Shown in pieces: positions 16,949 through 64,000 of a stretch of 64,000 nt of DNA. How positions within the stretch are numbered: position 1 is the first letter of the stretch; each line of letters begins with the position of its first letter. Position numbers and translations under genes: made by a program. Below the pieces are notes generated by a model. The model was not told the DNA's origin. It made no database searches and saw nothing but the letters and a program-made list of their open reading frames with translations. Origin of the DNA: Streptomyces phaeoluteigriseus (lineage in GTDB: Bacteria; Actinomycetota; Actinomycetes; Streptomycetales; Streptomycetaceae); NCBI RefSeq assembly GCF_001896135.2, contig NZ_MPOH02000005.1:380887-444886 (forward strand), written 5' to 3'.

Positions 16949-17944
16949 GTGGCGGGTCGTCACGGGCCTGGAGTGCTGGGCAGGGTCCTCGTCGCGGCGG
17001 CGGTGCTGGGGATCTCGTGGGCGACGGTGGGTGGCGAGGTACTCACACACGCGGGCGAAACGTGTGTGCTAGCGCGCGGTGCGCTGACCGTGGACGACCT
17101 GCCTGCCGGATCGTCCGTGCTCGACTGCGCGGCCGTGGGACGCCTCCTCACCCACCAGGGCGCCGGCGTCACGGTCCCCGAGCCGGGCAGGAAGGTCACC
17201 GTCGACTCGCTGGCGGTGGACGGCTCCCGGCACGGCTTCAGCCTTGAGGTCGGTGCCGACGGTACGGTCTCCTACGATCTGCCGGACGATGCCGGATCGG
17301 AGGAGCATGCCCACGCCGCCGGCCCTGCCACTACCTCCCGTGCCGCGTGCGCCGACGGCGCCTACGCCCTCTCCGGCCACAAGGAGTACGGCACCTACGA
17401 CTGGTGGCTCGGCGACGACGCCCTGCCCGGCAATCTCTCCGTCGCCGAGGCCCGCCGCACCTTCGACGGCGCCATCGGGACCATCACCGGCACCCGCAAC
17501 AAGTGCGGGTTCGGTGACGTGGTCGGGGCGCGCTCCAAGTACCACGGACGGACCCACCACGAGGCCGACATCGACCAGCAGGCCCGCTGCACGGCCCGGG
17601 ACCACGTGAGCGTCTGGGACGCCGGGGCCCTCAATTCCGGTGTCGTCGCGACGACCTGCTCGTGGAGCCGCTCGGTGAAGGGCGGCGGCCCGGACTGGCT
17701 GAAGGAGGCCGACGTCCGCTTCAACACCCGCCACTACACCTTCACGAACAATCCCACCGGTGGCTGCAAGAACACGTACGACATCAGCAGCGTCGCCACC
17801 CACGAGGCGGGCCATGTATTCGGTCTTGCCCACGTCGGCTCCGGCCACGAGGGGCAGACCATGTTCACGAACTCGTTTGCGTGCAGCACGAGCGCCCGCA
17901 GCCTGGGGCGCGGAGACGTGCTCGGGTTGCGTGCCCTGTACTGA
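16949..17944 (+). CDS. Secreted matrixin-like zinc metalloprotease
   Basis: 331 aa. A hydrophobic signal or anchor (about 8-30) is followed by a propeptide-like region, then a catalytic domain containing the full metzincin zinc motif HEAGHVFGLAH and a downstream SARSLGRGDVLGLRALY helix, as in M10-like actinobacterial peptidases. The conserved Met-turn residue may be the Met of EGQTMFTNSF. Paired cysteines (for example CKNTYD...FACST) suggest an extracellular enzyme. The GTG at 16949 is preceded by GGAGGG. The adenylation gene lies 275 nt downstream on the same strand. Confidence 0.8.
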   Translation: MAGRHGPGVLGRVLVAAAVLGISWATVGGEVLTHAGETCVLARGALTVDDLPAGSSVLDCAAVGRLLTHQGAGVTVPEPGRKVTVDSLAVDGSRHGFSLEVGADGTVSYDLPDDAGSEEHAHAAGPATTSRAACADGAYALSGHKEYGTYDWWLGDDALPGNLSVAEARRTFDGAIGTITGTRNKCGFGDVVGARSKYHGRTHHEADIDQQARCTARDHVSVWDAGALNSGVVATTCSWSRSVKGGGPDWLKEADVRFNTRHYTFTNNPTGGCKNTYDISSVATHEAGHVFGLAHVGSGHEGQTMFTNSFACSTSARSLGRGDVLGLRALY

Positions 17945-18218
17945 ACTGCGCTCAGACCGACACAGCCCGGGTGTCGGGAAATCCACTCGGGACCGACCAT
18001 GACACGGGCGAATTCGCAGTGGAGTCCATCCGCCGCTGATGGCCGCTGCGTCTCCTACTTCGGCGGTCGCGATCCGCTCGACGTGGGGGACCCTGTTGAT
18101 CTACTGGCAGGACTGATGACACGGCCTCGCTGTCGAGCCACCGCGTAGGCCGATCACCCTCGGCTCGGCCCGATCGTCGGCATACTGCTCCCAACAAGAC
18201 TGCGGGCAAGGGGAACCG

Positions 18219-20167
18219 ATGTCGGTGGAACAGGTGCCGGCCGCCGGACAGCAGGTGGACGAGCTGGTGGCGGGGTGGGCGGAGACGACGCCGTCGGCCG
18301 AGGCGATCGTTTGCGGTGTCGAGCGGATCACCTACGGGGAGCTGGGCCGTCTCGTGGAGACCGAGGCGGGCCGGCTGGGCTCGATGGGCCTGCCGCCGGG
18401 CGGGCTGGTCGGCGTCGCCCTGGACCGGCCCGTCGCCGCGCTGGCCGTCATGCTGGGCGTGCTCAGGGCCGGAGGCGCGTACCTGCCGCTCGATCCGGCC
18501 ATGCCCAGGGCGGAGTTGCACCGCGTCCTCGGGGACGCCGATCCGTACGTCGTGCTGACCCGGGAGCTGTACCGGGTGGCCGCCGAGGACCGGCCGGACC
18601 GGCGGGTGGTGTGCGTGGACGCCGAAGCGGACCCCGCGGAGGAGACGGGCCGGGGCGCGCCGGCCGGCCGTGGCGCCGCCGCGTGTCTGCTCCTGACCGC
18701 CGGGACGACCGGCCCGGCCGGTCTCGTCCCGGTGAGCCACCAGGACCTGACCGCGGCCCGGAACGCGTGGCAGCAGGTCTACGGCTTCGACGCCCGGGAC
18801 CGGCACGTGCACACCGCCCCGCCCGAGTCGGCGGAGTTCACGGCCGGGTGGGTGCGGGCGCTGGGCTCCGGCGGGGCCCTGATCCTCCCCGACGGCGACG
18901 AGCCCCACGACCCCGGCGCCCGTGCCACGGCTCTGGGCCGGCTCGTCGCGACGAAGAGGCGACGGTGCTGGCCTGCGGTGTGCCGACCGCGCGGCTGCTG
19001 ACGGCACAGGGGCTGCCCGGCGAGCGGTTGGGCGGCTCGGGCCCGCCCGGCGGGACCCGGCTGCGCCTGGTGACCGTCACCGGGGACACCTGGTACCTCG
19101 ACGAACAGCGGGCCCTCAAGGACGCGCTGGGCGACGCGGTGCGCGTGGTCAACGCCTACACCGTCACCGAGGCGTTCGGTGCCGGCACGTACTTCGAGCT
19201 GCCGGACGGTCGGCATCCGTCGGAGGACGGGCGGGAACCGGTCTCGCTGATCGGCGTCCCGCTGCCCGGGACCTACCTCACCGTCCGGGGCGACCGTCCC
19301 CGCTTTCGGGGGCCCATCGTCCTGAACGGCGTCCACACCGGCGACGACGGACGGCTGCGGGACGACGGCCTGCTGGAGTTCCTGGGCCGTCACGGCACCT
19401 ACGCCGCCGCCGAGCGCGCGCTCCACGGCCATGCCGACGTGCGCGAGGGTCTGGTGACCGAGGTGGAGACCGAGCACTCGAAGGGCGTCAAGGTCGTGGC
19501 TTACGCGGTCGCCGCCGAGGGCCGCACCCTGGACGTGGTGGACGTCCACCGGCACGTGTGCCACGCCCTGCTCTCGGACGCGCAGCCGCACACGGTGGTG
19601 CCCGTGCCCTCGCTGCCGCGCACCCGGGCCGACAAGGTGGACCGTACGAACCTGCCCCTGCCTGTGGCGGTGGGCACGGCGCTCGGCCGTAAGGGCGGTG
19701 CCGGCGGCCACGCCGCGCCGGCCAGCGCGACGGGGTGCCTGGTGGCCGGCGCCCTGCTCCTCGTCGCGTTCTTCGCCCTGCTGGCCTGGTTGTTCACCGA
19801 CCTCCTGTGGCCCTCCTCGACGGACGTTTCGGCGGTGCCCAGCCCCTACGCGGGCTACTTCCGGCTCCTTTACCTCTTCGAGAACGTGTCCTTCGGCGTC
19901 GGCATGGCCTTCCTGCTGATGGGACGTCCGGGCATGTCCCGGGCCGGACACCCAAGCTGGTTCACGACGCTGGCTCACCTGTCCGTGGTCTGGCTGCTGG
20001 TCGCCTGGTGGCCGCAGGACAACCTCTACCGGCTCGCCGCCAAGACGGACTGGGCGGAACAAACCTTCCTCGTCTACACCTTCAACGTGTCGCTCATGGT
20101 CGCCGCGGCCGTGGTCGCCGCGTTCGCCGCGGTGACGCCCAAGTGGCGGCGGAAGCTGGGCCGGTGA
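18219..20167 (+). pseudogene. Stand-alone adenylation protein with C-terminal membrane domain, frameshifted
   Basis: An AMP-forming adenylation domain like those of NRPSs, without a carrier domain. Visible motifs: LLTAGTTGPAGL (core A3), AYTVTEAFGAGTYF, HTGDDGRL (A7 region), FLGRHG and the catalytic-lysine motif PRTRADKVDRTNLP (A10). Four transmembrane helices follow (starting near 19735, 19850, 19970 and 20070). The frame switches at about 18945-18950 (GRLVA...DEEATVLACGVPT); adding one G (GTCGCGGACGAA) restores a single protein of about 649 aa. The start at 18219 has GGGG six bases upstream. It probably activates an amino or aryl acid at the membrane. The convergent ATP-grasp ligase is a plausible partner. 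Confidence 0.75.
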
Positions 20168-54298: not shown

Positions 54299-54790
54299 TC
54301 ACCCTGGCTCGGGTCGTAGCTCCCCAAAATCGTTGGACTCCCAGGCAGCGGACTCCCAGGTGAGCTGGTCGCCCAGGGCGAAGGCGAAGAGACGGCCTTC
54401 ACCGTTGCGGCCGTGCAGGATGCGCTCCCCACCCTCGGTATGCGTCCTGGTCGTCTTCCAGGTAGTGCCGTACGCCTGGAAGGCGGTGCGCGCCCGCCCG
54501 GGTGTCATGCCATGACCGTTGTCGGTCACCACGACCTCAGTGATCGCCTGCATGCTGGAGCGACGTAGTTCGACGTCGCCCTCGGTGGCGTTGGCGTCCA
54601 CGGCGTTCCACACCAGTTCGGCGACCGCCGTGATCTGGGGCTTCCTCTTGAACTGGAGGATCTTGCGCTCGCCGACCGAGAGCTCGAACTCCGTCAGCGG
54701 CGGTCCGCTCTGTGCCGGCAGTTCGGCGCCGACCACGCCCACGCCAACTCCCGTGCGAGCAGCGCCTTCTGTGCTGTGATCCCCAGACAT
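54299..54790 (-). pseudogene. GHKL ATPase (MORC/Hsp90-like), truncated
   Basis: N-terminal GHKL nucleotide-binding core: AVAELVWNAVDANATEGDVE (N-box with E and N), VVVTDNGHGMTPGRARTAFQ (G1 box, DNGHGM) and GGERILHGRNGEGRLFAFAL (G2-like lid). It stops after 163 residues. Related bacterial ATP-binding proteins, including paraMORC-type ATPases often found near defence genes, continue for hundreds of residues. The 3' part has been lost. Confidence 0.65.
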
Positions 54791-55393
54791 GCGGTGACCG
54801 TACCGGTTTCGCACAGTGCGGGACACATCACCTTGCATGACGGGGGGCGTGTGCCGTGGTCTACCACTCGCAGCGATGGGGCAGCCGGCGCGCGGCCCGG
54901 ATGAGGTCTTCCGTGCAAGGGTGACGGCACTGAGGGAAGGCTGTGCCCTCACCACGCGGGGCGTGCACCTCGGTGATCGAGCGCATCTGGACCGCCCAGC
55001 CGTGCCCAGCGTCAGCGCGGCTGGGCGTCCCATCCCCTGCAGCCGTCCTCGCCGTGGACGTGGCCAGCCATCCAGGCGTCGCCCCCCACGCTGCGGAGAA
55101 CTGGCAGACAGGACGGACACAGGCCCGACCACGGAAGGTCAGCGCCTCGCGGGGGACGGATCGGCTGAACACACCCCCGCCCGGCACGAGCACCGCGATT
55201 GCGCAGTGCGGGCGACAGGCATGTGTCCCTCAGTGCACTGTGCCTGACAGATATCTGCAGGTTGTTCAGGCACGTACGGCATGTGCGCAAGGTGGGAGGC
55301 CGATCCCCGATGCTGCCCGTCACCGTCGAGCGTGAACCGTTCCCGTCCCTAGGGCGTCCATACGGGCACCTGACACCGTGGAGCCGCCGCACC
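54791..55393. other. Region without a supported gene
   Basis: No domain is recognisable in any frame. It may hold the promoter of the pentapeptide-type gene that follows. Confidence 0.35.
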
Positions 55394-55668
55394 ATGAGCA
55401 CATCCGAACCGCCGTTCTGGCCGCACTGCGCACACGGTGCAGACCCTGCTGCCAACCCCGTTGGTTGCCGCGGCATCCACGTCCCCGGCCACACCGCGTG
55501 CCTCGCCCACCTGACCGACGCCGACCGCGACGCCTACCTAGCAGCCCTGACTCCCGGCGCCAGCATCGACCACCGCGGCACCACCTTCACCGAATCCCTC
55601 CTCAACGCCTTACTCAACGTCCTCCGTGAGCCCGCAACCGGTAACCCCCGCTTAGGTACCGGCAGGTT
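55394..55668 (+). pseudogene. Pentapeptide-repeat protein N-terminus, cut by an IS256 relic
   Basis: ATG 55394 opens STSEPPFWPHCAHGADPAAN, GCRGIHVPGHTACLAHLTDA and DYRG-like DHRGTTFTESLLNALL. This is the conserved cysteine/histidine head found before pentapeptide repeats in Streptomyces proteins. After NPRLGTGRFGSS, where the repeats should start, sequence becomes that of the opposite-strand transposase. Confidence 0.65.
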
Positions 55669-56090
55669 CGGGTCGTCGACCGAACCGCTCGAGTGCGGCC
55701 TCCTCGGTCGCAGCGGTGTAGACGGGCTTGAGGAGCTTGGTGATCTTGTCCCAGTCCTGGCGGGCGGCATAGCAAAAGGAGTTCCGCAACAGGTGGACCA
55801 CGCAGGTCTGGACGGTAGTGCGCGGCCAGACGGTCTCCACCGCGTCGGGCAGGCCCTTGAGGCCGTCGCAGACGAGCATGAGGACGTCGTTCACGCCGCG
55901 GTTCTTGATCTCGGTGAGGATGTGCATCCAGTGCTTGGCGCCCTCTCCGCCGTCGCCTGCCCACAGGCCCAGGATGTCCCGCCGGCTCTCGACGGTGACG
56001 GTGAGGGCCACATAGATCGGCCGGTTCGCCACGGCACCGTCGCGGATCTTGGTTCTGTCGACGATCTCGTGATCCGGACGGCTGGGCACG
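55652..56090 (-). mobile_element. IS256-family (Mutator) transposase internal fragment
   Basis: The minus strand reads KIRDGAVANRPIYVALTVTV, ILGLWAGDGGEGAKHWMHIL, GVNDVLMLVCDGLKGLPDAV and QTCVVHLLRNSFCYAARQDW. These are the central RNase-H-like part of Mutator-type transposases, including the Asp of CDGLKGLP. The N-terminal HTH and the C-terminal Glu region are missing. It interrupts the pentapeptide gene. Confidence 0.8.
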
Positions 56091-56133
56091 TTGCTCCGTC
56101 TGTTCGCGATCATGCATCGCGTGCTCTCGTGAT

Positions 56134-56640
56134 GTGCTCCTCGAGCTGTTTCCGTACCTGTCCGCGTTGCTGATCGACGAGGTGGAGAGGCGACCGGACC
56201 AAGTAGTGCTGAGAACGCGGGTGCGGGCGGCGACTGGGTCCTGTCTGTGCGGTCAGAGCTCGGCCCGGGTGCACGGTCGGTACGTACGCAGGCTGCGTGA
56301 TGTCGCTGTGGCGGGCTCGGTGTCGTGATCGAGTTATGCGTGCGTCGCTTCCGCTGCGAGAACCCTGCCTGCTCGGCGGTGACGTTCGCCGAACAGCTTT
56401 CGGGACCGACAACCCCGCACAATCGGCACACCCCGCTGCTGCGCGGGGTGTTGACCGGAATCGGGCTGGCCCTGGCCGGCCGGGCAGGAGCCCGACTGGC
56501 GGCCGCGGTCGGCCTCACCGTAGGTAAGGACACGCTGTTGCGGCCGGTCAGGTCTCTGCCCGAGCCGGAGATCGGCCAGGTGGAGATCCTCGGTGTCGAC
56601 GACTTCGCCTTCCGCAGGGGCCGCCGCTACGACACGAGTA
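56134..56640 (+). mobile_element. ISL3-family transposase 5' portion, frameshifted
   Basis: GTG 56134: LLELFPYLSALLIDEVERRP and the zinc-finger CLCGQSSARVHGRYVRRLRD, then a frame slip at about 56320 to RRFRCENPACSAVTFAEQLS and VEILGVDDFAFRRGRRYDT, where the first catalytic Asp lies. The sequence is cut at about 56637, before the rest of the DDE domain. It lies directly beside the IS256 relic. Confidence 0.75.
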
Positions 56641-56836
56641 TGCCTTCGACCACGACGTGGAATCCGGCGTCCAGGGCGTAGCGGGCGTTCAGGCCGATGT
56701 GCGTGGCACCGGGCCGGTCGCACTCCCGGCGCGGCGGAGGTTGTCCTGGCCGACCAGGGCCAGGCCGTGCCCGAACCGCTCACGCAGGCCGGCCGCGACG
56801 GACGACTTCCCTGAGGCGCTGTTGCCGACCGGCCGG
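56641..56836 (-). pseudogene. P-loop kinase fragment (AAA/zeta-toxin-like)
   Basis: The minus strand reads GNSASGKSSVAAGLRERFGH and LALVGQDNLRR, then after a frame slip ARYALDAGFHVVVEGI. This is a Walker A (GNSASGKSS) kinase of the type annotated as an AAA-family or zeta-like phosphotransferase. It is cut on one side by the ISL3 relic. Confidence 0.6.
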
Positions 56837-59322: not shown

Positions 59323-60294
59323 CGTGCGGTTCCTCTCTCGCGGGGTGCCGACCGATTCCGGCATCACCGACCATCGGTCCCCCGCCGCATTGAAACAGCC
59401 CATGGCCACCTCCGGTGCACCCGTTTGCCAACGACGGGCGCCCTCGCCGAGAGCCCGGCGGGCACGCCGCGGGGTCTCGGCGAGGGCGCCCGTCGGGGTC
59501 GCTGCTCATGCTGAACGGTCGGTCCAGTGGCCGAAAGAGCCGCTGCGCCTGGGCGCAGACCGCAGATCCCGTCAGGGGTACGACGGTCAGGGTGGACGCC
59601 CTCCTCAGGGAGGTGGTGCTCGCTGATGACACCCAAGGCCAGCGCGCCCAGCTGGGCGTCGTCACTGAACACCACCGCCCCGGACATGCCGCGCCACTGT
59701 GAGCCGATACTGCCAGGCGTTCCTTCGGGCGTGGACCAGCTCCGTCCTGGCCCCGGCTGCCCAACGCACCGATGACCTCGAGGTGCATCTTCACCTGGCA
59801 CTTCGCCGACCGTGGCCGCCGCCGCTGACGCGTCCGCTTTGGGAGAACCCGCACACGAGAGGGCCGCCGCCGTGCTCCAGGCCCACACCCCGCTGGACAC
59901 CGTCGACCTGTCCGCGCTCTACCGTCGCGTCCTGGTCCTGCGGCTGGAGCATGACGGCCCGATCACCGCTGGACGCTCGCGCACTCGCCGAACAGCACCG
60001 CCGGGAAGCCACCGGCGGCACCCCCGCATAACCGTCAACGCCCGGCAACGCAGGGCGCGTACGACGCTCCCCGGCCCTGAAGACGAAAGAGGTTCTGCCG
60101 TGCGCCGATCACCCTGTCCCCGCCGTACGCGCTTGGCTCCCGCGGCCGATGACGACCGCCGGTGCGTCGACTGCGGCCTGCCCTGCACCGAGCAGGTATC
60201 CTCCTCCCCCGCACCGAGAGCGGAAGACGTGCTCTGTATGCCTGTTCCGTGCACGCGGCACAGCGACGCCGGGCGGCTGGAACTGCGCCAGACA
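59323..60294. other. Mostly decayed region, one broken ORF at about 59812-60031 (plus)
   Basis: Plus-strand sequence AVLQAHTPLDTVDLSALYRR and VLVLRLEHDGPIT, then in the next frame LDARALAEQHRREATGGTPA and a stop at 60031, looks like a small gene with a frameshift. Around 60155-60240 a Cys-containing stretch CVDCGLPCTEQ is seen. No families are recognised. Confidence 0.35.
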
Positions 60295-61041
60295 TCAGCC
60301 TTCCGCTCCCGGGGCCGGTGCCTGGTCCAGGGGGGCAGGCAGGGCGCGGATCCATGCCACGCCGGTGAAGCTCTTCGCCGCGACGTGGATCTCCGCCCGC
60401 CGGAATCCGGTGGCGGCCAGACCGTTGTATCCGTGGGAGACGAGGTCCTGGTAAAGCCCGTCCGAGAACGCGGCGACCAGGTGGGTCGAAGGGTCGGCGG
60501 CGAGGGCGCGGCGTACAGGGCCGGAGTCGAGGACCCGGAACAGAGCGACCACGGCGGACCCGGCGTAGCCGCTGTCCGCCTCGTGGACGATGCCCTGGTG
60601 CAGACCGGCCCGCATCCGGACGCGCTGCGGATACGAGGCCGCTGCATTGGCGTCGGCCAGCGCGGAGGCGAGGCCGTCCAGAAGGTCCGGGACGACCCGG
60701 GTCTCGTCGATGCCGGGCTCGAACACGAGCAGATAGCCGTCTCCCTGCGCCTGTCGGCCGCAGCTGTCCCAGACGATGCCTGCGCGCGCGCATGCGGCGC
60801 GCAGCGTCCGCAGCAGGACCCGCTGCAGCCGGATCATGTCGGTGTTGTCGCGGGCGCTGTACTTCTCGATGTCGACGGCGAGGCAGAGGCGCCGCAGTCC
60901 CGGTGGCAGTTCCGCGCCGTCCGCCTGTGGGCCGAAGTCCTCGTACGCGGCGAGTGCCCGGGCGCCGGGCGCCGCCGCCCTCCCCGGGGCGAGCGGTACG
61001 GCGGCGGGCCAGAGGTCGGCGGCCGCCAACCGGAAAGCCAC
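60295..61041 (-). CDS. Class III nucleotidyl cyclase-like protein
   Basis: 248 aa. A cyclase-homology domain from about residue 50: LRRLCLAVDIEKYSARDNTD (first metal-Asp region DIEKYS), RQAQGDGYLLVFEPGI (GDG in the place of the second metal loop), YPQRVRMRAGLHQGIVHEAD (R(L)xxGLHxG strand) and AFSDGLYQDLV. This pattern matches divergent adenylate/guanylate cyclase-like proteins of actinomycetes, whose activity is mostly unproven. GTG 61041 has GGGAGG about 10 nt upstream. It is divergent from the membrane/vWA/PP2C/kinase operon, suggesting a shared signalling role. Confidence 0.7.
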   Translation of the reverse strand: MAFRLAAADLWPAAVPLAPGRAAAPGARALAAYEDFGPQADGAELPPGLRRLCLAVDIEKYSARDNTDMIRLQRVLLRTLRAACARAGIVWDSCGRQAQGDGYLLVFEPGIDETRVVPDLLDGLASALADANAAASYPQRVRMRAGLHQGIVHEADSGYAGSAVVALFRVLDSGPVRRALAADPSTHLVAAFSDGLYQDLVSHGYNGLAATGFRRAEIHVAAKSFTGVAWIRALPAPLDQAPAPGAEG

Positions 61042-61156
61042 GATCGGCCCGCCTCCCTCTTGGGCCGTGCGATCCGCCCGTAAGCTGAAGCTCTGTGATG
61101 GCGACGGGGCAGGCCTGTGCCGGCTCCTCGACCAGTTCAAGAAACAGCAGGTCCGG

Positions 61157-61759
61157 ATGAAAGAGGCCGGTCTCCCCGGGGAGGCCGATCCGCGCATGGT
61201 CCTGGACGAGCGGGCAGCGCTCAGGAACACCTCGGCCGTCGACCCTGTCCGGCTCACCTTCCCCTCAGGCGAAAGCACTGGCTTCGGCGTGGACGAGACG
61301 TTGCTGACAGTGCTCGCCGCCGGTACGGCCGTGTTCGGCTGGGCGGTCCTGCGGACCAGGTACCGGCCCGCGTTCGTCGCCGTACCCGGCGGTGGCACCC
61401 GGCCCCGGCCCGCCGCCGAACCCGAATCCGGCTCATGGACCGCCCGTACCGCCCGTACCGCCGGACCGCCGCCGGTGCTGCCGCGGCATCCGCCACACCG
61501 GACGTGGCCCGACGACCACCCGCAGGCACCCACGGCCGGCCCACGCGCCGTGCCGGACGGCCCCGTCCGCCCGGCAACCGTACGCACGAGCCTGCACCCC
61601 CAGGGATACGTCGAACTGGACGGCTGGTTGTACCGCGCGAGCTGGGCCGAGCCGCACCTGGACGCGCCGGACCCCGACGCGACCGTCGACGTCACCGACC
61701 ACCGGCCCGGACCCCTCCTGGCGTACGCGCCCGCGGACTCGCGCGATTCCCACGCCTGA
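61157..61759 (+). CDS. Membrane protein heading the vWA-phosphatase-kinase operon
   Basis: 200 aa from ATG 61157; coding-like sequence extends upstream (LCRLLDQFKKQQVRMKEAGL), so the start may be earlier. There is one transmembrane helix (ETLLTVLAAGTAVFGWAVLR), then a Pro-rich linker and a small C-terminal beta domain (YVELDGWLYRASWAEPHLDA), which recalls NfeD/OB-like tails. It lies 97 nt before the vWA gene. Function unknown; it may anchor or sense for the module. Confidence 0.6.
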   Translation: MKEAGLPGEADPRMVLDERAALRNTSAVDPVRLTFPSGESTGFGVDETLLTVLAAGTAVFGWAVLRTRYRPAFVAVPGGGTRPRPAAEPESGSWTARTARTAGPPPVLPRHPPHRTWPDDHPQAPTAGPRAVPDGPVRPATVRTSLHPQGYVELDGWLYRASWAEPHLDAPDPDATVDVTDHRPGPLLAYAPADSRDSHA

Positions 61760-61856
61760 CTCGGCCGACGGCTGCGGGCCGAGCCGCGCGGAGCCGCCGC
61801 GCGCAGGGACACACACGCACCACATCACGGACACGACAGCAAGGGGATCCCTTCCC

Positions 61857-62639
61857 ATGAACCCGACCATCCCGGGCCCGCCGGCCACACCGCCGCAGGA
61901 TCTGCCCGCCGCGTACGCGGACATCGAGCTCGACAACAACGCTCAGCGGCTGCCGCTGCTGCTGTGCCTGGACATCTCCAGCTCCATGTCGGGCGAGCCG
62001 ATCCGGCTGCTCAACGAGGCGCTGGCCCTCTGGGGGCGCGAGATCCAGGAGGATGTCGGGCTCAGTTCCAGCGTCGAGATCGCCCTGGTGACCTTCGGCG
62101 GCATGGGGATCGGGGTCTGGCAGGGCCCGCATCTCCTCGACCCACGGGCCACCATCAGCCCCTTCGTGTCCGCCCACCAGTTCCGGTCGCCGCAGCTGTC
62201 GGCCTCCGGGGTCACGCTGTTGACGGAGGCCGTGGAGACGGGGATGCGCCTGGTGGCGGAGCGGAAGACGGAACTGCGCCGCTCCGGGCTCCAGTACTAC
62301 CGCCCGCAGATCTGTCTGGTGACCGACGGTCTGCCGACCGACAGCCACGGAATGGCCACGGACGCGTGGCGCCGGCTCGTCCCGACGCTTGCCGCCGAAC
62401 AAGCCGCGAAGCGCTTCCGCTTCTACGCCTTCGGCATCGGCGGAATCAGCGACCGGGGCCAGCAGGTGCTGCGCGAACTGGCGCCCAAGTACCACGCCAC
62501 GCTCAAGGGTTTCCCGTTCCGCGACCTGCTGCAGACCATGTCGGCAAGCGCGAGCGCCGAACAGCAGGGTGCGGAGGAGGAGACCTTCGAGCAGTTGTTC
62601 AACCGGTTCAAGACGCAGCGTTCCGCCTGGGACGCCTGA
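61857..62639 (+). CDS. von Willebrand A domain protein (TerY-like)
   Basis: 260 aa, cytosolic, a single vWA domain. The MIDAS is LLCLDISSSMSGEPIRLLNE (DxSxS), with the Thr of SASGVTLLTEAVETG and the Asp of ICLVTDGLPTDS completing the metal site. FRFYAFGIGGISDRGQQVLR follows. It matches TerY-type proteins that work with a PP2C phosphatase and kinase. Here those two genes follow immediately. A purine-rich AAGGGGAT lies upstream of ATG 61857. Confidence 0.88.
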   Translation: MNPTIPGPPATPPQDLPAAYADIELDNNAQRLPLLLCLDISSSMSGEPIRLLNEALALWGREIQEDVGLSSSVEIALVTFGGMGIGVWQGPHLLDPRATISPFVSAHQFRSPQLSASGVTLLTEAVETGMRLVAERKTELRRSGLQYYRPQICLVTDGLPTDSHGMATDAWRRLVPTLAAEQAAKRFRFYAFGIGGISDRGQQVLRELAPKYHATLKGFPFRDLLQTMSASASAEQQGAEEETFEQLFNRFKTQRSAWDA

Positions 62640-62663
62640 GCGGCGGGCGACGAGCGGCGAGGG

Positions 62664-63575
62664 GTGAGGACGATCGAGGTGCCGGGGGCAACGGAGACCG
62701 GACAGGTCAAAAGCCGGGCGTGGCGCGTGCACGGCGTCAGCGTCCAGGGATATCGGCACGCCCAGCAGGGGATGCCATGCCAGGACGCCTGGGGGCAGTC
62801 GCACGCCAGCCCTCCCGGTAGCCGGATCCCGGTCCTGGCGGTGGCGGACGGAGCGGGCAGCAGACCGCGTTCGCAGGAGGGTGCACAGCTGGCGATCCAG
62901 CTGGCCACGTCGGTGTTCGGGGCACGGCTGGGCGAGCGGGCGAGCGCGCCGGGGGACGTCGAGGACCTCCGCACCCGGCTGCGGGACGCCTTCCTGGAGG
63001 TGCTGGACGCGTTCATCGACGGCACCTGGGCACTGTCCACCGAGGACGGCGCAGCCGCCCGAGGCCGCAGGGGCGGCCCGGCGGATTTCGCCACCACCCT
63101 CACCGTGGTGGTGCTGGGTCCCGGCTGGCTGGGTTACACCTCGCTGGGGGACGGCTTCGTGGTGTTGCGGGCCGGTGTGGAGAACGGTGAACCGCAGTTC
63201 CATCTGCTGCCGCAGCCCGAGGCGGCGGGCGAGTACGGCAATGAGACCACCTTTCTGAGCTCGGCGGACGCCGCGCTGCGCGTGCGGATCGACTGTGTAC
63301 GGGACGACGACGTCGACGGCGTCATACTCTCCACCGACGGTCTGGCGCAGGCCGCACTGTCCGGTGGACGAGGCCCGGTGCCGCGGGCCAACCCCTCGTT
63401 CGCCGCCTCGGTGCTGCGCTCGCTGGACCGTCCGGGCCCTAGCCCTCGGGCCGACGCGCGGGAGCTGGAGGCGCTGCTGCTGTCGGACCGGCTCACGGCG
63501 CTCAACGCCGACGACAAGACGCTGGTGCGGGCAGTCCGTACGACGGGCGGCCCGGTGGGAGGGGAGCTGCCGTGA
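62664..63575 (+). CDS. PP2C-family protein phosphatase
   Basis: 303 aa. PPM/PP2C fold: HGVSVQGYRHAQQGMPCQDA (N-terminal, CQDA), PVLAVADGAGSRPRSQEGAQ (metal DGxG), DFATTLTVVVLGPGWLGYTS, SLGDGFVVL, VDGVILSTDGLAQAAL and NADDKTLVRAV (C-terminal metal DDxT). All key metal-binding Asp positions are visible. It begins 24 nt after the vWA stop and ends overlapping the kinase start (GTGA), so the three are translated together. Predicted Ser/Thr phosphatase of the TerY-P triad. Confidence 0.88.
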   Translation: MRTIEVPGATETGQVKSRAWRVHGVSVQGYRHAQQGMPCQDAWGQSHASPPGSRIPVLAVADGAGSRPRSQEGAQLAIQLATSVFGARLGERASAPGDVEDLRTRLRDAFLEVLDAFIDGTWALSTEDGAAARGRRGGPADFATTLTVVVLGPGWLGYTSLGDGFVVLRAGVENGEPQFHLLPQPEAAGEYGNETTFLSSADAALRVRIDCVRDDDVDGVILSTDGLAQAALSGGRGPVPRANPSFAASVLRSLDRPGPSPRADARELEALLLSDRLTALNADDKTLVRAVRTTGGPVGGELP

Positions 63576-64000
63576 CGGGACGGAAAGTATTTCTGGACGG
63601 GCAGCCGCTGGTGCTCCTGGCCCCGCCGCTGGGCTCGGGCCTGGAGGCGGCGGTCCATCCGGTCGAGGGCGACGGCGGCCTGGTGGTGAAGCTCTACCAC
63701 CAGCCCGACGCCGCGCGGGAGCACCGGGTACGGCGGATGCTGGCGCTGAACCCGCTGGCCGACCGCCCCGTGGACGGTGGGCAACCCCCCGAGCTGGCGT
63801 GGCCGGTGGGGATCGTGCAGGGCACGGACGGCGGTTTCCTCGGCTACGGCATGAAGAGCTTCGCCGGGCCCGGACACATCCAGCTCATGGCGCTGTTCAG
63901 CCGGGAACAGCGGCTCCGCAGATTCCCGGCCGAGGCCGACTGGCGGTTCCTGCTCGGGATCTGCTGGAACCTGGCGTTCATGACCGCCAGGCTGCACCAC
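63572..64000 (+). CDS. Protein kinase-like protein of the TerY-P triad (partial)
   Basis: GTG 63572 overlaps the phosphatase stop. The 143 residues in the window read TGRKVFLDGQPLVLLAPPLG, SGLEAAVHPVEGDGGLVVKL (Gly-rich loop and the ATP-binding Lys) and ELAWPVGIVQGTDGGFLGYG. They correspond to the N-lobe of the TerY-associated Ser/Thr kinase family, in which an HxD loop and further domains follow. The gene is cut by the window end. Confidence 0.8.
   Translation, partial: MTGRKVFLDGQPLVLLAPPLGSGLEAAVHPVEGDGGLVVKLYHQPDAAREHRVRRMLALNPLADRPVDGGQPPELAWPVGIVQGTDGGFLGYGMKSFAGPGHIQLMALFSREQRLRRFPAEADWRFLLGICWNLAFMTARLHH

Follow-up and report, generated by a model that had tools for sequence, protein, structure and literature searches.

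The subject of this report is a vWA-PP2C-kinase gene triad, and the larger locus of which it forms part, at the 3' edge of a 64,000-nucleotide stretch of Streptomyces phaeoluteigriseus DNA (contig C45:380887-444886 of an 8.64 Mb assembly), which is called the window below. The window ends inside the kinase gene, and the sequence was read onward over C45:440500-460000 (region L004, in which a position plus 59613 gives the window position). The features at this end of the window are:

60295..61035, minus strand: class III nucleotide-cyclase-fold domain, the 3' part of its gene, 87% identical to residues 197-431 of an intact 451-amino-acid (aa) homologue
61036..61082, no strand: deletion junction, about 47 bp without homology in blastn against an intact relative (locus L054)
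61083..61759 (first ATG at 61157), plus strand: 3' remnant of a membrane-protein gene, with the transmembrane (TM) helix and C-terminal domain, 78% identical to residues 106-350 of the intact protein
61857..62639, plus strand: TerY-like vWA protein with an intact MIDAS motif (DISSSM); its Pfam VWA_3 match (E=0.0013) is below the curated cut-off
62664..63575, plus strand: PP2C-family protein phosphatase (PP2C_2, E=2.9e-37)
63572..64000, plus strand: N-terminal part of a protein kinase, the whole gene running to window-equivalent position 64855 (Pkinase, E=2e-7 for the whole protein)

A preliminary description, made from the letters of the window, had reported a triad in tight order with a GTGA overlap between the PP2C and kinase genes; the overlap is present in the sequence, and the MIDAS motif together with the PP2C_2 and Pkinase matches bears out the triad. 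The kinase retains, as judged by eye, the beta3 lysine, the catalytic Asp/Asn loop (GDFSAKN), the metal-binding aspartate (LDCD) and the APE motif, and its C-terminus carries a zinc ribbon (CPWC; called from the sequence and not by a model) and a TM helix. Adjacent vWA, PP2C and Ser/Thr kinase genes, the last with a C-terminal zinc ribbon, make up the TerY-P triad as it is defined in PMC11090510 (citing Anantharaman 2012), which also describes stand-alone kinase-OB versions as anti-phage (citing Gao 2020). Relatives of the vWA protein with at least 50% identity occur in 16 of 150 Streptomyces genomes, and the family at E<=1e-10 in 20 of them. PADLOC gave no match for the membrane, vWA, PP2C and cyclase proteins, and an NCBIfam search likewise gave none.

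The fit to this definition might suggest an ordinary TerY-P switch for tellurite or metal stress, but we consider this very improbable. A search of the genome for TerD found none within 430 kb of the locus on the contig (the nearest is at about 8 kb, and the window ends at about 445 kb), so that assignment to the Ter system is rejected and the earlier claim of a TerY-P-like triad lacking ter genes stands. Moreover, in contrast to TerY-P loci, which share the vWA, PP2C and zinc-ribbon kinase genes in tight order, there are neither ter nor restriction genes here; instead, a membrane protein heads the genes, the kinase has the extra C-terminal TM helix, and dynamin-like GTPases, an Hsp70 and a YbjN-fold protein are found around the triad. 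Two TerD genes in the assembly, at C45:2015-2433 and C9:198290-198789, are each divided between two reading frames, a sign of possible frameshift errors or decay in other parts of the assembly.

Reading past position 64000 revealed the remainder of a ten-gene operon with the order membrane protein-vWA-PP2C-kinase-GTPase1-C39-192aa-GTPase2-Hsp70-YbjN; the extension proposed in the preliminary description thus led to genes other than ordinary ter genes. GTPase1 (Dynamin_N, E=1.3e-11 in the intact homologue) is followed by a C39-like peptidase (E=6.5e-9), a 192-aa protein without a family, GTPase2 (Dynamin_N, E=2.1e-18) and an Hsp70 (E=3.3e-38 in the intact homologue). The last gene codes for a 153-aa protein without a Pfam match, whose AlphaFold2 model (pLDDT 88.5) best matches the structures of E. 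coli YbjN, CesT and DR_1245, with a further match to SycT; the match to 6vu7 (E=1.6e-4, TM-score 0.67) places it in the YbjN/TY-chaperone fold, which is like that of type III secretion chaperones. The GTPase pair recalls the dynamin-like defence proteins LeoA/LeoBC of PADLOC, with GTPase2 matching LeoA (E=1.6e-18) and LeoBC (E=8.6e-16), but GTPase1 matches weakly, and here an Hsp70, the triad and a peptidase accompany the pair. The same gene order is seen in Streptomyces sp. GQFP, Streptomyces sp. ISL-100 and S. musisoli, and also in a remoter copy (genome G301) with 36-76% identity.

The window's copy of this locus is damaged. Its vWA protein has relatives at 100% and 95% identity in GQFP and ISL-100, respectively, and in the intact copies of these two genomes the genes divergent from the membrane gene code for two caspase-like proteases, namely a CHAT protease (about 1210 aa) and a caspase (about 640 aa), a Crp-like regulator with cNMP_binding and HTH_Crp domains, and then the cyclase (451 aa); S. 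musisoli CH5-8 (L069, L090) has the intact arrangement likewise, and the His/Cys motifs of both the caspase and the CHAT protein are present in the sequences of the intact copies. In blastn, window positions 60291-61035 correspond to 8705-9449 of L054 and positions 61083-63576 to 17410-19901. About 7.96 kb of L054 is missing from the window, comprising the CHAT, caspase and Crp genes and the ends of the cyclase and membrane genes. Since the homology stops at 61035 and begins again only at 61083, and this segment is missing in between, the direct adjacency of the cyclase and membrane genes is, on the sequence comparison, evidently a deletion scar, even though the cyclase itself belongs to the locus type. 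The divergent cyclase-like gene of the preliminary description is therefore a real open reading frame (ORF), with a class III fold in its intact homologue, but it is 5'-truncated, with its N-terminal beta-rich domain lost, and its immediate vicinity to the membrane gene comes from the deletion. The intact membrane protein (L025/L054) is about 350 aa long, with a signal peptide, an outer domain, one TM helix and a conserved C-terminal domain; of these, the signal peptide and the outer domain are gone from the remnant. A sub-threshold Pfam hint of an NfeD-like identity for the C-terminal domain, seen in one type B homologue (see below for the types; E=0.14), is not claimed.

The deletion alone costs the locus both proteases, the Crp regulator and the sensor half, so that what the window retains is probably a relic or only part of a system. 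In comparison with L025 there are also three single-base losses in GTPase1 and one in Hsp70, in or beside G/C runs; these four may be sequencing errors rather than true pseudogenes, a possibility kept in view since the two TerD genes mentioned above are also split. It has further to be asked if the window's own arrangement, a short membrane protein and a divergent short cyclase, could be a functional unit, given that both frames are open and the triad is intact. We find this hard to credit: the homology breakpoints, the missing signal peptide and cyclase N-terminal domain, the absence of a caspase homologue from anywhere in the genome and the single-base losses speak against it, and the same junction was not found in unrelated genomes. 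A damaged copy read alone can mislead in this way, a striking gene pair having turned out to be a deletion scar. The preliminary description was also incomplete, since its view took in neither the downstream GTPases, C39-like peptidase, Hsp70 and YbjN-fold protein nor the CHAT and caspase genes that have been lost.

The genes of these loci can be grouped into three modules: M1 (membrane protein-vWA-PP2C-kinase), M2 (GTPase1-C39-192aa-GTPase2-Hsp70-YbjN) and M3 (CHAT-caspase-Crp-cyclase). All three occur together in GQFP, ISL-100 and S. musisoli, and in damaged form in the window; the locus type of the window is termed type A. Type B loci, which occur in many Streptomyces and also outside the genus within the same family, combine M1 and the YbjN-fold gene with a Ser/Thr kinase gene that stands where M2 would be, and the type C loci (L037-L039) are similar, with the triad, the YbjN-fold gene and the Ser/Thr kinase. 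The membrane gene is present in every complete locus of types A and B, where it heads the triad, and was not detected in the type C loci of the first set; the one-helix membrane head of the preliminary description is hence a genuine part of these operons, though the short form seen in the window is the 3' remnant of a longer protein. The cyclase is present in three of the four intact type A operons and absent from types B and C. The co-occurrence of membrane and cyclase-like genes with the triad, to which the preliminary description had pointed, thus holds for type A, while for types B and C the cyclase part fails.

Further combinations bear on the linkage between the modules. S. caniscabiei (L074/L089) has M2 and M3 without M1, and there M3 lies beside the GTPase/Hsp70 half in the other orientation, which indicates that the modules are linked through rearrangement. 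M3 is also found beside GAP1-N2-type triads (L056/G091 and L057/G125). In the 150 Streptomyces genomes, the caspase is present in four and GTPase1 in five, and in all four caspase genomes the caspase gene lies beside the cyclase gene and near a vWA-PP2C-kinase triad; the chance of such a coincidence is 2.4e-4 if the genomes are independent, and its true weight is lower because two of the four are close relatives.

The most original and most testable element of the locus is a pairing between the YbjN-fold gene and the C-terminal tail of the protein encoded directly before it. In type A this preceding gene codes for Hsp70; in types B and C it codes for a Ser/Thr kinase that is unrelated to Hsp70. 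Both proteins end in the same helix segment of about 18 residues (ALLDAGLTDxMVxxAVxR), their genes stopping a few codons inside the start of the YbjN gene. When the C-termini of 7354 ORFs (100 aa or longer) from all loci collected were searched for this pattern, 27 distinct ends were recovered, every one of them in an Hsp70 or kinase gene directly before a YbjN-fold gene and none elsewhere. The tail codons vary synonymously, and the tail is therefore conserved as protein and not as DNA alone. The Hsp70s of two cyclase loci without YbjN (L091, L059) have no tail. Among remoter YbjN loci a weaker tail is present in L074, L106, L110 and L112, and none in L113. As the YbjN/TY-chaperones are regarded as peptide binders (PMC9503650, PMC5398634, PMC3575483), the simplest reading suggests that the tail is a docking peptide for the YbjN-fold protein. 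Alternatively, the tail and the YbjN gene might have moved together as a cassette, in which case retention of the tail would still imply its use. The TY-chaperones of conflict systems (PMC9503650) share this fold and have a proposed peptide-binding role, whereas here the chaperone is coupled to a conserved tail on an Hsp70 or a Ser/Thr kinase. Binding of the tail by the YbjN-fold protein offers a cheap and decisive test for a family with few known partners.

For the cyclase, Pfam and PADLOC gave nothing, and a profile search against the PDB weakly matched class III cyclases (E about 0.06). The AlphaFold2 model of an intact homologue (pLDDT 82) matched these enzymes in Foldseek at E about 1e-6, including Ma1120 (target TM-score about 0.7), OaPAC and the cUMP synthase 7r65, and we accordingly assign it to the class III cyclase fold. 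Asp251 and Asp295 (metal) and Arg363 are invariant in 24 homologues. A Crp-type regulator and GTPases are the steady companions of the family: dynamin-like pairs with Hsp70 in L080-L082 and L084, dynamin-like GTPases with Hsp70 in L085, double-GTPase-like proteins in L075, L077, L079 and L059, and a GAP1-N2 system in L056. The cyclase fold, the cUMP synthase match and a cyclic nucleotide monophosphate (cNMP)-binding partner are shared with Pycsar, and distant cyclase homologues adjoin a PycTM-like two-TM protein. In contrast to Pycsar, however, the cyclase matches no PycC model, and its partner is of the Crp transcription-factor type and not a cNMP-effector fusion, the Crp protein matching PycTIR through its cNMP-binding domain alone; we do not assign the locus to Pycsar. 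With cyclase and cyclic-nucleotide-binding regulator sitting together at three of four intact type A operons, the suspected link to cyclic nucleotides is favoured for this locus type, even as the cyclase module is not tied to triads in general.

Some cyclase loci have further features of their own. In L059, L060, L081, L082 and L084 (S. avidinii, S. virginiae, S. yangpuensis) an Hsp70, two double-GTPase-like genes, a dynamin-like pair, a cyclase of the same family and Crp recur with no triad or caspase. In L061 and L062 a cyclase of this family has as its neighbours dynamin-like GTPases, Crp and a two-helix protein resembling PycTM (PADLOC E=2e-4), a Pycsar-like context. A gene resembling double-GTPase-1 (E=9e-6 in L075) lies within a few kb of the CHAT-(caspase)-cyclase genes in L075, L077, L079 and L058.

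We propose, at a probability of roughly one half, that the window holds the left end of a multi-module, membrane-linked Streptomyces conflict or stress system that is damaged in this strain; the locus has the appearance of a defective copy of a system for conditional cell death or defence. The sequences show the gene content, the linkage through rearrangement, the folds, the retained catalytic motifs, the deletion and the coupling of tail and YbjN-fold gene; the signal, the order of events, the cyclic nucleotide, the docking and an outcome of envelope- or phage-triggered cell death are inferred. In the intact form, with its ten-gene operon and the divergent CHAT-caspase-Crp-cyclase genes, an envelope or invasion cue would be sensed by the membrane protein's outer domain (or by the vWA protein), and the kinase and PP2C would form a reversible phospho-switch, to which the YbjN-fold chaperone may dock the C-terminal helix of Hsp70 or, in other lineages, of the Ser/Thr kinase. 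Freed Hsp70 and the dynamin-like GTPase pair might then assemble at the membrane, while the cyclase would make a cyclic nucleotide that the Crp protein reads in setting caspase and CHAT expression, with proteolysis by these two killing or arresting the cell. An anti-phage function is a plausible prediction. More tentatively, the YbjN-fold protein could be the interchangeable adaptor of a modular system of programmed death or immunity, connecting whichever client bears the tail, be it Hsp70 or a receptor-like Ser/Thr kinase, to the membrane-anchored switch of vWA, PP2C and kinase. In such a system the dynamin-like GTPases would act as executors at the membrane, and the caspase and CHAT proteases would be under the control of a new class III cyclase-Crp pair. 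Separately known parts of conflict systems (triad switch, dynamin-like GTPases, Hsp70, caspase, cyclase/Crp) are joined here at one bacterial locus, and our literature search found no description of this gene combination.

Several observations weigh against such a system. The ten-gene operon of G301 lacks the cyclase module (and has an extra GrpE-like gene), and several species have M3 without any triad; hence, the cyclase module and the ten-gene operon may be two distinct systems that are frequently carried on one island. Of the four loci that are full or nearly so, three come from close relatives. In the 24 cyclase homologues the substrate lysine is replaced by a nearly invariant glutamine (Gln291) and the transition-state asparagine is not conserved, which renders cyclase activity uncertain; the protein may be an enzyme of unusual specificity or a nucleotide sensor. 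The G301 operon, the occurrence of the tail-YbjN-triad core of type B without any protease, and the matches of the GTPases to dynamin and LeoA-like proteins would all suit membrane maintenance instead of killing, in which the dynamin-like pair, Hsp70 and membrane protein would reseal or remodel the membrane when stress or phages attack it, with the kinase and phosphatase as the gate and the cyclase/caspase module as a separate neighbour. That cyclase, GTPases and caspase are repeatedly linked in differing orders, and that a C39-like peptidase lies within the operon, makes this explanation a rather unlikely one.

The closest published framework for the proposed conflict or stress system is theme 3 of the GAP1-N2 GTPase systems, which Kaur et al. 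2020 (PMC7159879) describe as a zinc ribbon/TM kinase, PP2C and stand-alone vWA occurring with GAP1 and double-GTPases. The locus possesses this kinase-PP2C-vWA set, and GTPases are common to both, raising the possibility that it is a variant in which dynamin-like GTPases replace the double-GTPases and GAP1 while the task, regulated assembly, is unchanged. This would agree with the homologous triads of L040-L043 (30-37% identity), where GAP1-N2, GAP1-M and GAP1-C were confirmed in L041, with the kinase ending in zinc ribbon and TM helix, and with the same caspase/CHAT/cyclase module beside the GAP1-N2-type triads of L056 and L057. Against it, tblastn with GAP1 found no match in the window, L004 or the intact type A loci, the positive controls L041-L043 and L056 being recovered, and the operon GTPases match Dynamin_N and not DO-GTPase, with no ZnGTP match. 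Membership in the GAP1-N2 class is thus rejected, as the locus lacks GAP1 and DO-GTPase, which sets it apart from theme 3; the FNIII parts are also absent, and a YbjN-fold chaperone with its tail is present instead. Descent as a variant of the class is accordingly unlikely. Theme 2 of this GTPase-centric class carries Hsp70 and GrpE. GrpE-like proteins are encoded in operons at L115:12920-13501 and L091:12470-13543, presumably as exchange factors for the neighbouring Hsp70, and none was seen in the window's operon type. In the GAP1-N2 systems of L040-L043, the kinase gene of the triad is immediately followed by genes resembling those of a radical-SAM activating enzyme and of a Clp-like AAA+ protein.

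Upstream of the damaged locus, at window positions 55600-56700, transposase-like pieces are discernible by eye, Mutator/IS256-like on the minus strand and ISL3-like on the plus strand. At 54300-54900, on the minus strand, there is a truncated N-terminal fragment of a GHKL/Hsp90-like ATPase (WNAVDANATE...DNGHGM), likewise recognized by eye.

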